A DNA stretch of 64,000 bases from Eubacterium ventriosum (GTDB taxonomy: Bacteria > Bacillota > Clostridia > Lachnospirales > Lachnospiraceae): the NCBI RefSeq assembly GCF_025150745.1, contig NZ_CP102282.1, positions 1,871,501 to 1,935,500 on the forward strand. Reading direction: 5' to 3'. Below the pieces are notes generated by a model. That model ran no database searches, was not told the DNA's origin, and worked only from the letters and a program-made list of their open reading frames with translations. This document shows, in pieces, positions 50,461 to 54,815 of the stretch; the first letter of the stretch is position 1, and every line of letters begins with the position of its first letter. Both the position numbers and the translations under genes were made by a program.

Positions 50461-51516
50461 ATGGCAGGAAATAGAAATTATCATGACCAGGTAATAGTTG
50501 ACAATCAAATAAAGCTTAGAGAACTTCAAAAACAGCTACCAAAGTTCTGTGCAGAGTTTTTCCGTGGTGTTGAGCCTACTACTTCATCCAGAACAAGAAT
50601 AGCTTATTGTTATGATCTTATAGTATTTTTTAATTATATAAAATCTTCTAATCCTGAAATGGCTAATGTTCCTGTTGTGGATTATCCTATGGAATTACTT
50701 GATAAAATTACAGCAACTGATATTGAAGAATATCTCGAATATTTAAGATACTATGTTACGGAAGATGGCAAAGAGCATACTAATGGTGAACGTGGAATTA
50801 TGCGAAAGCTTGCCTGTCTAAGAACATTGTATAGATATTTCTACAAGAAAGAAAGTATTAAGACTAATCCTGCTTCTATTGTGGATATGCCTAAAATACA
50901 CGAAAAAGAAATTGTAAGATTGGATGCAGATGAGGTAAGCGTTCTTCTTGATCAGGTGGAATTAGGCGATAAATTAACTAAGTCCCAGCAGAAATTCCAT
51001 GACAAAACAAAAACAAGGGATATGGCGATTTTAACCCTTCTACTGGGTACTGGAATGCGTGTTTCTGAATGTGTTGGCATAGATATTAATGATATTGACT
51101 TTAAAAACAGTGGCATAAAGATTAGACGAAAAGGTGGTAATGAAACTGTAATCTATTTCGGAGAGGAAGTTGAAAATGCTTTACTTGATTACTTGGAAGA
51201 GAGAAAATTAATAGTTCCACAGGATGGACATGAAAATGCACTATTTCTATCTCTTCAGAAAAGACGTATCGGTGTACGTGCCGTGGAAAATCTTGTAAAG
51301 AAATATTCATCTCTTGTTACAAACTTAAAAAAAATCACCCCTCATAAACTTCGTAGTACATATGGTACTGCTCTTTACAAGGAAACAGGTGATATATACC
51401 TTGTAGCCGACGTTTTGGGACACAAAGATGTAAATACCACTAAAAAGCATTATGCTGCCATTGAAGACGAACGAAGACGTAAGGCACGTAATGCTGTAAA
51501 GCTAAGGAAAGATTAA
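50461..51516 (+). CDS. XerC/XerD-like tyrosine recombinase
   Basis: A 351-aa site-specific recombinase. The N-terminal SAM-like core-binding domain spans roughly 15-140. Catalytic residues are R200 (GTGMRVSE), H295 and R298 (HKLRSTYG), H321 (GHKDVNTTKK) and the nucleophile Y331. It is somewhat longer than chromosomal XerC/D (about 300), and its start is AAAAGGAGGG followed by the ATG at 50461. It may be the dimer-resolution enzyme or a phage-type relative. No dif-like site was recognised next to it. Confidence 0.88.
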   Translation: MAGNRNYHDQVIVDNQIKLRELQKQLPKFCAEFFRGVEPTTSSRTRIAYCYDLIVFFNYIKSSNPEMANVPVVDYPMELLDKITATDIEEYLEYLRYYVTEDGKEHTNGERGIMRKLACLRTLYRYFYKKESIKTNPASIVDMPKIHEKEIVRLDADEVSVLLDQVELGDKLTKSQQKFHDKTKTRDMAILTLLLGTGMRVSECVGIDINDIDFKNSGIKIRRKGGNETVIYFGEEVENALLDYLEERKLIVPQDGHENALFLSLQKRRIGVRAVENLVKKYSSLVTNLKKITPHKLRSTYGTALYKETGDIYLVADVLGHKDVNTTKKHYAAIEDERRRKARNAVKLRKD

Positions 51517-51610: not shown

Positions 51611-51627
51611 GAACACAGTGTTCGATT
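51611..51627. repeat. 17-bp repeat with 13-bp palindrome, copy 1 (3' of yneA)
   Basis: GAACACAGTGTTCGATT, identical to 54674-54690. Its first 13 bases are an odd-centred palindrome. It lies 17 bases beyond the yneA stop codon. Confidence 0.85.
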
Positions 51628-51644
51628 CTGGTATTCTTTATATA

Positions 51645-51977
51645 TTATTTCTTCTCGTAAGAATAATATGCAATAATAAGTTTCTTCCCTGATGTTATTT
51701 CGTCGTCTGAAAGCTTGTTGTTCTTCATTACTTCATCTATATAATCTGATGTGCTTACATTAGAATCCTTAATATGCTCCTGAGCAATAGATGTTAATGT
51801 ATCACCGGGCTGAACCTGGTAGCTTGTGTAATATTTATACTTAGCATATTCCTTGCCATTCATTGCGTCCACTTTAGTAAGCTTAATGGATGAGAATACT
51901 GCAACTGCTAATAAAAATGTGATAATTGCTCCGTAGACTAATTTCTTCTCTGACTTAGTATTTCCTGACTTCTTCAT
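51645..51977 (-). CDS. yneA: YneA-like SOS cell-division inhibitor (LysM protein)
   Basis: A 110-aa protein with a basic start, one membrane segment (about 13-32) and a LysM domain (about 50-105, TSYQVQPGDTLTSIAQEHI to KKLIIAYYS). YneA in Bacillus has this exact layout, lies divergent to lexA and delays division after DNA damage. Here the gene also faces lexA, with LexA-type boxes and a promoter at 52085-52166 directly upstream. The start at 51977 follows GGAGGT. Similarity outside LysM is weak, so the call depends on context. Confidence 0.78.
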   Translation of the reverse strand: MKKSGNTKSEKKLVYGAIITFLLAVAVFSSIKLTKVDAMNGKEYAKYKYYTSYQVQPGDTLTSIAQEHIKDSNVSTSDYIDEVMKNNKLSDDEITSGKKLIIAYYSYEKK

Positions 51978-52084
51978 TGTATGTACCTCCAAATTGTTAA
52001 ATTAAATATAATTGAATAATTGTTCTATAGATATTCAAGCTACTGAAAACTGTAAGGTTTATTATTATGTATTAAATAACTATA

Positions 52085-52098
52085 AGAACAAACGTTTG
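52085..52098. promoter_or_regulatory. LexA-type SOS box A
   Basis: AGAACAAACGTTTG fits the Firmicute CGAAC-N4-GTTYG pattern with one change. It lies just downstream of the yneA -10, near the transcription start. Confidence 0.6.
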
Positions 52099-52113
52099 CT
52101 GTCTGATATAGTT

Positions 52114-52142
52114 ATAATATCATCCGAACAAATGTTTGTCAA
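52114..52142 (-). promoter_or_regulatory. Sigma-A promoter of yneA
   Basis: On the minus strand TTGACA (52142-52137), 17 bases and TATTAT (52119-52114). LexA box B overlaps the -35 and spacer, so repressor binding would block it directly. Confidence 0.75.
52125..52138. promoter_or_regulatory. LexA-type SOS box B
   Basis: CGAACAAATGTTTG, a near-consensus match to CGAAC-N4-GTTYG, placed over the yneA -35 region. Confidence 0.75.
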
Positions 52143-52152
52143 TAACTTTTTT

Positions 52153-52166
52153 CGAACAAATATTCG
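52153..52166. promoter_or_regulatory. LexA-type SOS box C
   Basis: CGAACAAATATTCG, palindromic CGAA...TTCG form of the box. It lies ten bases before the plus-strand -35 at 52176, so it is the probable operator for the outward, formerly lexA-directed promoter. Confidence 0.65.
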
Positions 52167-52175
52167 AAAAATTCA

Positions 52176-52204
52176 TTGCTTTATTTTTGCTGTTATGGTA
52201 ATAT
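52176..52204 (+). promoter_or_regulatory. Outward sigma-A promoter, probably the original lexA promoter
   Basis: TTGCTT (52176-52181), 17 bases, TAATAT (52199-52204). It points toward lexA, but the first gene it now meets is the IS30 transposase at 52371. Confidence 0.5.
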
Positions 52205-52270
52205 TAGTATATATTAAGTACCATATTCAGTACTTAGAACTTTAATTTAAGATATTTAATTGCAATTTAA

Positions 52271-52312
52271 ACTGCTAGTTTTTCCATGCTACTACTTTTG
52301 CAAACTAGCAGT
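52271..52312 (+). other. 11-bp stem hairpin ahead of the IS30 element
   Basis: ACTGCTAGTTT (52271-52281) pairs perfectly with AAACTAGCAGT (52302-52312), loop of 20 bases. It lacks a T-run, so it may be a structured leader or translation-blocking hairpin for read-through transcripts. Whether it belongs to the element or the host is unclear. The rest of 52205-52340 shows nothing else recognisable. Confidence 0.5.
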
Positions 52313-52340
52313 TACCTTTGCAAAAGTGTATATTTTAAGT

Positions 52341-53707
52341 AGTCTTTGTTTGATCAGAAAGGAGGCTTTTATGCCAAAACAATTATCCTTATCTGAACGA
52401 ATAATTATTGAACGTATGATTAGTAAAGACTACTCTTTTGCCTCTATTGGTAGAAATCTTGAACGTTCAGCTTCTACCATTTCTAGAGAAGTAATTAAAT
52501 ATCGATGCTTTGTTGATAGAATTCCTCTCCCTGGCGAGAATGATTGTACTCACAAAAACTCTTGCCTAAAGAATTCTATCTGCGATGATGTTGGAGTACA
52601 TGGATGTTATGGATATCGTTGTAAGCGATGTCCTGAAGATCGTATATGCACAAATATTTGCGCTTCTTATGAATCTTCTCAATGTCCTCTTTTAGATAAA
52701 CCTCCTTATGTCTGCACTAATTGTTCTATGCTTAAACAATGTAAACGTAACAAGGCTTACTATACAGCTCACAGAGCTGATGCTGCTCATCACAAAAGCA
52801 TTCGCAATGCTCATTCCGGTGTCAGAAAAACTCCATCTGAATTAAGAGCAATTGCTGATATAATTGAACCTCTTATTGCTAAAGGTCAATCTCTAAATCA
52901 CATTTGTGCTACGCACTTAGATGAATTGGGTATATCAGAGAGAACTCTCTATAATTACATTGACCAGGGTGTTTTTAAGGTTCGTAATATTGACCTTCCT
53001 AAAAAGGTTGTTTACAGGCAACGTAGGCCTAAAAAGGTTCTTACCAAGCTTGAATACCAATATAGACAAGGTCGCACCTATGAAGATTTCAAATCCTTCA
53101 TGGAAGCAAACCCAGATCTACCTGTTGTAGAAATGGATACTGTAAAGGGTGGTCGTAATAAGGGAAAAGTATTTCTTACTATGATTTTTAGAAGGACAAG
53201 TTTTATGCTTATCTTTCTAATGAACGATGGAACTCAGGATAGTGTAATTCAGATTTTTGATTCCTTAACTGAGATTCTTGGAGTCTCTCTATTCAAGAGA
53301 TTATTTCCTGTTATCTTGACCGATAACGGCGTTGAATTCAAAAATCCTCAAGCACTTGAACACACAAGAACAGGGCTTTCCAGAACTCGTGTATTCTTTT
53401 GTGATCCTCAAGCTTCGTGGCAAAAACCACAGGTCGAAAACAACCATCGTTTAATACGAAGAATACTTCCTAAAGGTGTTAGTTTTTCACCCCTCACTGT
53501 TGCTGACGTAACGTTAATCTGTTGTCATATAAACAGTGTTCTTCGTGAAAATTTAGATAACAAAACACCTTTTGATTTAATGGACTCCAAAGACGGAAAA
53601 AAGTTATTGTCTTTGCTACAACTTTCACCTATTCCACCCGATGAAGTTACTTTGAGTCCAAAGCTACTTAAGCGTTAATTAACATTTTAATTGATCAAAC
53701 AAAGACT
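52341..53707 (+). mobile_element. IS30-family insertion sequence
   Basis: Bounded by perfect 16-base terminal inverted repeats, 52341-52356 (AGTCTTTGTTTGATCA) and 53692-53707 (its reverse complement). They enclose a single intact transposase that starts 15 bases after the left repeat and stops 14 bases before the right one. Total 1367 bases. No clear target duplication is visible (left flank ends AAGT, right flank begins CCCA), so the exact ends could be off by a few bases or the flanks have changed. Confidence 0.82.
52371..53678 (+). CDS. IS30-family transposase
   Basis: 435 aa, start at 52371 behind AAAGGAGG. An N-terminal helix-turn-helix (LSLSERIIIERMISKDYSFASIGRNL, STISREV) is followed by an unusual Cys-rich insert at 59-124 with 12 cysteines, probably metal-binding. 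The DDE integrase core has D256 (VEMDTVKGG), D318 (LTDNGVEF) and E356 (KPQVENNHRLIRR). No frameshift or stop interrupts it, so the element may be active. Codons such as CTT, TCT and GCT are more frequent than in neighbouring genes, consistent with recent arrival. Confidence 0.93.
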   Translation: MPKQLSLSERIIIERMISKDYSFASIGRNLERSASTISREVIKYRCFVDRIPLPGENDCTHKNSCLKNSICDDVGVHGCYGYRCKRCPEDRICTNICASYESSQCPLLDKPPYVCTNCSMLKQCKRNKAYYTAHRADAAHHKSIRNAHSGVRKTPSELRAIADIIEPLIAKGQSLNHICATHLDELGISERTLYNYIDQGVFKVRNIDLPKKVVYRQRRPKKVLTKLEYQYRQGRTYEDFKSFMEANPDLPVVEMDTVKGGRNKGKVFLTMIFRRTSFMLIFLMNDGTQDSVIQIFDSLTEILGVSLFKRLFPVILTDNGVEFKNPQALEHTRTGLSRTRVFFCDPQASWQKPQVENNHRLIRRILPKGVSFSPLTVADVTLICCHINSVLRENLDNKTPFDLMDSKDGKKLLSLLQLSPIPPDEVTLSPKLLKR

Positions 53708-54042
53708 CCCATATCTTTTAAAGAAGCGGGGTTGCAGTTATTTTTTCAAAACTAATGTTATGCCGCTTATTAACTATGCACGAAAATATAGCAAAACAAT
53801 AACTTTTTTATTATTATACACCATTTAAAGCTCAATTTTCACCCCATTTAAGGTTTAAAAAATTTGGTGTCAATATGTTCGTGCAGTTGCTTTTTCATTT
53901 AAAGTTTAATTTAAGATTTTTTTTGGAAATTCATATTATATTATTCAGACAGAAAGAATTATTGTGAGTTTTTATTAAAGTCTTAGGAATTTATTTTGAA
54001 ATTTTTTGAGGTTTAAATATATAGATATTGGAGGACGATTAT
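53708..54042 (+). other. Gene-free 335-base stretch between IS30 and lexA
   Basis: AT-rich with no LexA-type box and no convincing sigma-A promoter; the best -10-like words are TATTAT/TATATT near 53934-53943 without a good -35. It contains nested inverted repeats: AACTATGCACGAAAATAT (53772-53789) against the 53872-53888 arm, and inside that ACACCA/TGGTGT. The last 15 bases carry the lexA ribosome site. Confidence 0.55.
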
Positions 54043-54657
54043 ATGCCAGGAAAGATTACACCTAAACAACAGCAGATTTTGGATTATATTAAGGAAGAAA
54101 TTTTATCAAAGGGTTACCCACCAACTGTTCGAGAGATATGTGAGAAGGTAGGTTTAAAGTCTACTTCTTCTGTTCACTCTCATCTTTCAACTTTGGAGAA
54201 TAACGGATACATAAGAAGAGATCCTACTAAGCCTAGGGCTATTGAAATCATGGATGATGAATTTGGTCTTGTAAGACGTGAAATGACTAATATTCCTATT
54301 ATTGGAAGAGTTGCTGCAGGTGCACCTTTACTTGCAGTTGAGAATATTGAAGACTATTTTGCACTACCTACAGAATTTTTGCCTAATGGAGAAGTTTTCA
54401 TTCTTAAGGTGCAGGGAGAAAGCATGATTAATGTTGGCTTCTATGAGGGCGACTATTTAATAATTGAGAAGGCTGCTCAGGCTGACAATGGAGAGATTGT
54501 TGTGGCGTTAATAGATGATTCTGTTACGGTTAAGAGATTTTTCAAAGAAGACGGACACATTAGACTACAGCCGGAGAACGACTTAATGGAACCTATTATA
54601 GTAGATGACTGTGCAATAGTTGGTATTGTCAGAAGTCTTTACAGAAGAATTGTATAG
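54043..54657 (+). CDS. lexA: SOS repressor LexA
   Basis: A 204-aa repressor of the DNA-damage response. An N-terminal winged helix (TPKQQQILDYIKEEILSKGYPPTVREI, TSSVHSHLSTLENNGYI) binds the operator. The self-cleavage site is A92-G93, with the Ser-Lys dyad S127 and K164. The start at 54043 follows TTGGAGG. All functional residues are present. The normal operators beside yneA are separated from it by the IS30 element, and none is seen between the element and this gene. Confidence 0.96.
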   Translation: MPGKITPKQQQILDYIKEEILSKGYPPTVREICEKVGLKSTSSVHSHLSTLENNGYIRRDPTKPRAIEIMDDEFGLVRREMTNIPIIGRVAAGAPLLAVENIEDYFALPTEFLPNGEVFILKVQGESMINVGFYEGDYLIIEKAAQADNGEIVVALIDDSVTVKRFFKEDGHIRLQPENDLMEPIIVDDCAIVGIVRSLYRRIV

Positions 54658-54673
54658 AAGAATATATGATGTC

Positions 54674-54690
54674 GAACACAGTGTTCGATT
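54674..54690. repeat. 17-bp repeat with palindrome, copy 2 (3' of lexA)
   Basis: GAACACAGTGTTCGATT, identical to 51611-51627. Here the palindrome extends to 17 bases (TCGAACACAGTGTTCGA, 54672-54688). It begins 14 bases after the lexA stop. Confidence 0.85.
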
Positions 54691-54701
54691 GTACTATTAA
54701 T

Positions 54702-54769
54702 AAAAAAACAACCTATATTTGGCTACGAACTGAATTAATCAGAACAGTCGAAATATAGGTTGTTTTTTT
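54702..54769. terminator. Bidirectional terminator between lexA and the acyltransferase
   Basis: A 19-base perfect inverted repeat (54702-54720 and 54751-54769) with A7 and T7 ends, so it can terminate both strands. The 30-base loop contains a smaller near-palindrome (CTGAATTAATCAG). Confidence 0.88.
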
Positions 54770-54815
54770 GTTGAAATAAATTATTAGTACTACTGCTATT
54801 TAATCCAAATAGAGA

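Follow-up and report, generated by a model that had tools for sequence, protein, structure and literature searches.

An IS30-family insertion in the lexA leader of Eubacterium ventriosum that probably weakens rather than simply removes LexA self-control

In Bacillus, yneA and lexA form a divergent pair with common LexA boxes between them. Feedback on lexA governs both the depth and the shut-off of the SOS response. LexA boxes at -51 and -91 have been reported for lexA of C. difficile (PMC4234289), and in E. coli lost lexA feedback was reported, in outline, to give more LexA and a slower SOS turn-on, and too little LexA to mimic a lexA deletion (PMC7440846). Insertion sequences (IS) near genes are described as changing the expression of those genes (PMC9333248), LexA as repressing ISCR transposases (PMC13393415), and IS elements as interrupting genes in the prophage-like region of lexA2 in Leptospira (PMC3789691). 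An IS in a lexA leader was not found among the matches listed in a search of open-licence literature covering titles and abstract starts.

The locus described here lies within a 64,000-nucleotide stretch of the Eubacterium ventriosum genome (the window), and it has the same kinds of genes and boxes as the Bacillus yneA-lexA pair but differs in being interrupted by an IS. Its likeness to the E. coli lexA without autoregulation is a perturbed lexA negative feedback; there, as reported, the operators were mutated and the promoter adjoined lexA, whereas here both are intact and distance and a gene have been added (PMC7440846). With the reported IS-near-gene cases it shares an IS lying between a gene and its promoter in the same direction, and it differs in that the target is lexA, the SOS master repressor, which is itself predicted to control the promoter before the transposase (PMC9333248). 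As in the ISCR report a transposase gene stands downstream of a LexA-controlled promoter, but in ISCR the LexA site is part of the element, whereas here it would belong to the host lexA promoter and be gained by position (PMC13393415). The host genome is a single contig of 2,856,089 bases and is 99.97% complete; the closest named relatives of its lexA come from records of Eubacterium sp. and uncultured Lachnospiraceae bacterium. The features of the locus, in window positions, are as follows.

51645 to 51977, minus strand: yneA-like gene for a LysM protein of the SOS cell-division-suppressor type (Pfam LysM, 33.2 bits)
52085 to 52098, no strand: LexA box 1, AGAACAAACGTTTG (16 of 17 same-genus loci have a third box at the corresponding position)
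52114 to 52142, minus strand: predicted yneA promoter, TTGACA-17-TATTAT, with box 2 in its spacer (11/12; conserved in the alignment by eye)
52125 to 52138, no strand: LexA box 2, CGAACAAATGTTTG (all 17 same-genus loci have a box at this position)
52153 to 52166, no strand: LexA box 3, CGAACAAATATTCG (reads CGAATATTTGTTCG in 17 of 17 same-genus loci)
52176 to 52204, plus strand: lexA promoter predicted from conservation, TTGCTT-17-TAATAT, its -10 extended by a preceding TG
52241 to 52253, plus strand: target-site duplication, left copy, TTTAATTTAAGAT, from comparison of copies
52254 to 53904, plus strand: IS30-family insertion sequence, 1651 bp, ends set by identical full copies
52371 to 53678, plus strand: IS30 transposase of 435 aa, oriented like lexA (NF033563, 119 bits, cut-off 80; Pfam HTH_38)
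53905 to 53917, plus strand: target-site duplication, right copy, TTTAATTTAAGAT, from comparison of copies
53918 to 54042, plus strand: promoter-distal native lexA leader, containing the ribosome-binding site TTGGAGG and no LexA box, from alignment with 17 relatives
54043 to 54657, plus strand: lexA, 204 aa (TIGR00498, 234 bits, cut-off 110.95; LexA_DNA_bind PF01726 and Peptidase_S24 PF00717)
54699 to 54772, plus strand: intrinsic-terminator-like hairpin 3' of lexA (22-nt arms, 95% complementary, T-run; -24.8 kcal/mol)

Profile searches found both the DNA-binding domain and the S24 peptidase domain in the LexA translation, and the gene is intact. The motifs AAG, GESM and VKRF were seen in it by eye, as candidates for the Ala-Gly cleavage site and the motifs of the Ser/Lys dyad. 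The gene at 54043 is the sole full-length lexA match in the host genome. A fragment resembling the LexA DNA-binding domain and carrying an in-frame stop was also observed (G000:C1:1024032-1024232, 48% identity across residues 6-72), and similar fragments occur in G013. The start of the yneA-like gene was placed at ATG 51977, picked by eye from the preceding GGAGG, and its protein scored 58.1 bits against the NCBIfam YneA model, just under the cut-off of 60. Beyond it, positions 50461-51516 encode a XerS-like tyrosine recombinase (192.8 bits, below the cut-off of 267). The palindrome GAACACAGTGTTCGA occurs exactly twice genome-wide, at 51611-51625 after yneA and at 54674-54688 after lexA; it was absent from the 15 relatives scanned, with a similar palindrome at 8106 in L057. 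It was rejected by eye as a LexA box, its spacing being one base too long.

The original prediction had placed three LexA boxes and two divergent promoters next to the yneA-like gene; the boxes at 52085-52166 were confirmed and both promoters are predicted. Across the window as a whole, box matches with two mismatches or fewer were at chance level (12 against an expected 11.8), and it is their clustering and conservation, rather than their number, that speak for the boxes. The lexA promoter at 52176-52204 was not among the sites returned by the promoter scan and is likewise predicted from conservation. With the usual spacing, lexA transcription would start near 52211, and the element begins approximately 43 nt past this predicted start, inside the leader and oriented like lexA. 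Upstream of the element the three boxes and the two predicted promoters are all complete, which leaves the LexA boxes approximately 1.9 kb upstream of lexA at an intact predicted promoter. The claim that the element separates lexA from its SOS control region stood as to location, but the predicted promoter and boxes are intact and point toward lexA. In the 17 same-genus loci box 3 has the opposite orientation, CGAATATTTGTTCG being the reverse complement of CGAACAAATATTCG, as if the core had been flipped between the palindromic arms. Just past the predicted lexA start lies another palindrome, AAGTAC-N8-GTACTT (52216-52235), possibly a 5' hairpin or an operator; of 91 loci tested, 12 have a GTAC-N6-10-GTAC pair no more than 130 nt from lexA, 11 of them in the closest relatives (77-85% LexA identity).

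An intact IS30 element before lexA had also been predicted, and this was confirmed by the NF033563 match and by a full 1651-bp copy extending beyond the transposase gene on both sides. A search of the host's own genome found two further full copies (G000:C1:2310817 and 2635164), identical over 1651 bp in a base-by-base comparison, making three in all with the one at lexA. The direct repeat around the lexA copy is 13 bp, perfect and specific to that site, and each of the other two copies has its own, differing 12-base target repeat. The ends of the element share an imperfect pattern, TTTAA.TG.AA....AACTGC (by eye), and a perfect 16-bp inverted pair lies inside it (52341-52356 and 53692-53707). 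Longer target duplications occur in the wider IS30 family. The duplications of 12-13 bp at the three full copies differ from the 2 bp given for E. coli IS30 (PMC9333248) and speak against E. coli IS30 as such, while leaving membership of the IS30 family unaffected. Element-like DNA was found in at least 2 of 23 genomes of the genus, namely the host itself and G004 (a partial match, 88%), and in at least 10 of 200 genomes of the family including the host, where the others were partial and at most 86% identical; both counts are lower bounds because few candidates were scored per genome. From the perfect flanking repeat and the identical copies we infer that the element was recently active and that its insertion at lexA is young.

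To place this arrangement among relatives we searched with LexA, which matched in 48 of 60 genomes. Within the same genus 20 of 22 genomes matched, and three of these (G001, G017 and G018) were partial without a locus, leaving 17 loci. Every one of the 17 has both lexA-proximal boxes and 16 have the third; no element separates lexA from these boxes, which lie 103-198 nt upstream of it, and the proximal one starts 103-132 nt before the ATG. The farthest box starts at 198 nt, too close to the ATG for the element to fit between them in these loci. The lexA promoter pattern (TTG and an extended -10, either TAAGAT or TAATAT, with a spacer of 17 bases) was found in 12 of the 17, and the remaining five (L026-L030) read TTGACA-18-TAAGAT in the alignment by eye. 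When the element and one repeat are subtracted, the distance from the -10 to the ATG is approximately 174 nt in the window versus 52-81 nt in the 12 relatives measured, which indicates that the window leader has diverged in another way besides the IS insertion.

A second set of 92 lexA loci (12 more distant and 80 named, some on the same contigs as the 17) was searched by tblastn, and none of these 92 had a homologue of the element transposase. At least 77 of them have a yneA homologue, in support of the original prediction, and at least 57 a xerS-like gene, these counts being lower bounds since some contigs are short; in the relatives yneA and lexA are divergent with the boxes between them. 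For a pooled box test we took 109 loci with a lexA match, set aside L036 (13 nt upstream) and removed duplicates to give 93 distinct loci of the family. A box with one mismatch or none was present within 335 nt of lexA in 92 of the 93, the exception (L035) having two mismatches, and in a control of equal length inside lexA in 6 of 93.

The 335 bases before the window lexA, of which 197 belong to the IS and 138 to the native leader including one repeat copy, contain no LexA box, as had been predicted: the best site has three mismatches and 309 of 500 shuffles did better, with one mismatch or fewer in 34 of 500. Nor was a box present within 53708-54042, where one would have spoken against the original prediction, and the relatives do carry boxes near lexA, so that the other result counting against the prediction was absent too. 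By a definition of autoregulated lexA as having its operator near the gene, with a LexA box within approximately 335 nt upstream, the window lexA falls outside. The loss of a nearby box at this lexA is real and is rare in this set. A replacement LexA box between the IS and lexA was considered as a separate candidate and rejected, none being present.

Whether lexA still responds to LexA depends on transcription across the element. The element, transposase and lexA are all on the plus strand, in the direction of the native lexA promoter. A terminator scan of 51950-54100 (loops of 3-8 nt) gave no plus-strand terminator and one minus-strand site. In a separate scan the best plus-strand hairpin (-18.0 kcal/mol) was in the native leader, ending near 53990; it outscored the top hairpin of all 20 base-shuffled copies (range -4.5 to -16.8) and was weaker than the -24.8 hairpin after lexA. 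The stretch it occupies is AT-rich and 78 nt long, and it is doubtful as a terminator, though it could reduce read-through. The IS right end was rejected as a clear terminator because its folding is little stronger than that of shuffles, of which 20 in 200 did as well (z -1.4). Counted against a persisting LexA control of lexA were the strong folding of the read-in RNA (z -4.8, mostly through a hairpin at the left end of the IS), the 364 untranslated bases after the transposase stop, where Rho could act, the position of box 3 upstream of the lexA promoter -35, which bears on the strength of repression, and the leader length, which exceeds that of relatives even when the IS is discounted. With each of the six transcript starts that were tried, the transposase ribosome site was predicted to be paired, and transposase translation may therefore be weak from any promoter; a hairpin masking this site in the read-in RNA only was rejected, all six starts being alike. 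Promoter-like sites in 51950-54100 were at chance level (10 found, 9.7 expected in shuffles), and a clear new promoter between the IS and lexA was rejected on that ground.

With the predicted promoter kept and both transposase and lexA pointing in its direction, the insertion has lengthened the leader and added a gene rather than destroyed the promoter. We therefore somewhat favour, from the layout of the locus, a reading in which an IS30-family element inserted in the lexA 5' leader along the direction of transcription has created a LexA-controlled transposase-lexA unit. The LexA-repressed lexA promoter would transcribe the transposase first and lexA second in one long unit, and partial read-through reaching lexA would let autoregulation persist in weakened form. 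LexA resynthesis would then be lower or slower, possibly topped up by a weak promoter of the IS itself, and the transposase message of this copy would now be SOS-inducible. Self-control of lexA is thus probably weakened rather than simply removed. The original prediction that the insertion removed it was not borne out as stated; read-through, which it had already named among the options, would keep a LexA response. Less LexA and a slower SOS shut-off, opposite to the operator-loss case, appear the likelier direction of change. The cost in the reported E. coli case came with too much LexA, and too little appears at least as likely here (PMC7440846). We suggest only tentatively that damage induces transposase and LexA together from an operon under LexA, that IS mobility is tied to SOS in this way and that read-through sets the speed of SOS shut-off.

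Outright loss of autoregulation is the main live rival, although we think it unlikely. On this view the sole promoter of lexA would be one independent of LexA, located in the IS right end or the residual leader, and LexA would stay at a constant level; the lack of boxes in the stretch before lexA agrees with it. A weak candidate promoter, TTAAGA-17-TATTAT (53911-53939, 9/12), reads toward lexA, but it straddles the target repeat and the native leader and so predates the insertion. A possible outward -35 close to the right end of the IS, TTGCTT at 53887-53892, was noted by eye, but a good -10 at the right distance from it was not seen by eye. The hairpin near 53990 could cut read-through from upstream, as this rival would have it; against it stand the chance level of promoter-like sites and the natural lexA promoter, which points the right way.

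The three identical copies, the perfect flanking repeat and the single genome of the species would also suit a subclonal insertion in the strain sequenced that is neutral or transient and has no lasting regulatory effect. We regard this as rather improbable, since an arrangement that is near-universal elsewhere (92 of 93 other loci keep the box) has been broken and some effect is expected. Identical copies could in principle also be confused in assembly and one of them joined to the wrong flanks, but the genome is a single, nearly complete contig and the perfect 13-bp duplication is unique to the lexA site, unlike those at the other two full copies, which makes such an error very improbable. 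For the preferred reading, of a weakened feedback through a transposase-lexA unit, the locus is of interest because lexA lies 1.8 kb from its intact predicted promoter with a transposase between, a natural test of the feedback needed; it also tests whether an IS can turn SOS-inducible by position. One young insertion in one genome is a case and not a principle, an event of ordinary kind with an unusual target.

Elsewhere in the genome the exact pattern CGAACNNNNGTTYG has 8 distinct sites, and with counts of 4+5 versus 3+5 for a reversed control it was not enriched, so the sites were read singly. Four of the eight lie beside a likely SOS gene, the yneA/lexA locus among them; at the other four none was recognised by eye. 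For recA, CGAACACAAGTTCG ends 42 bases before the RecA-domain match, and other CGAACNNNNGTTYG sites are 53 bases from a Y-family polymerase gene and 84 bases from sbcD (names by eye). The presence of LexA boxes before recA and some other genes implies that a functional repressor is presumably still made, and as LexA is intact and there is no second full-length lexA, the box-bearing genes would be affected by any change in the supply of LexA.

Further traces of the element were observed in the host genome. At G000:C1:2635164-2637230 (L139) a full copy is followed by 12 bases, the target repeat, and then by a partial second copy, an arrangement in tandem that recalls IS30 dimers. Two other sites, L137 (G000:C1:817458-817526) and L138 (893067-893134), have approximately 69 bases in common with the IS left end and more than 100 further bases in common with each other; they are possibly non-autonomous, and one of the two sits approximately 100 bases from a LexA-like box.
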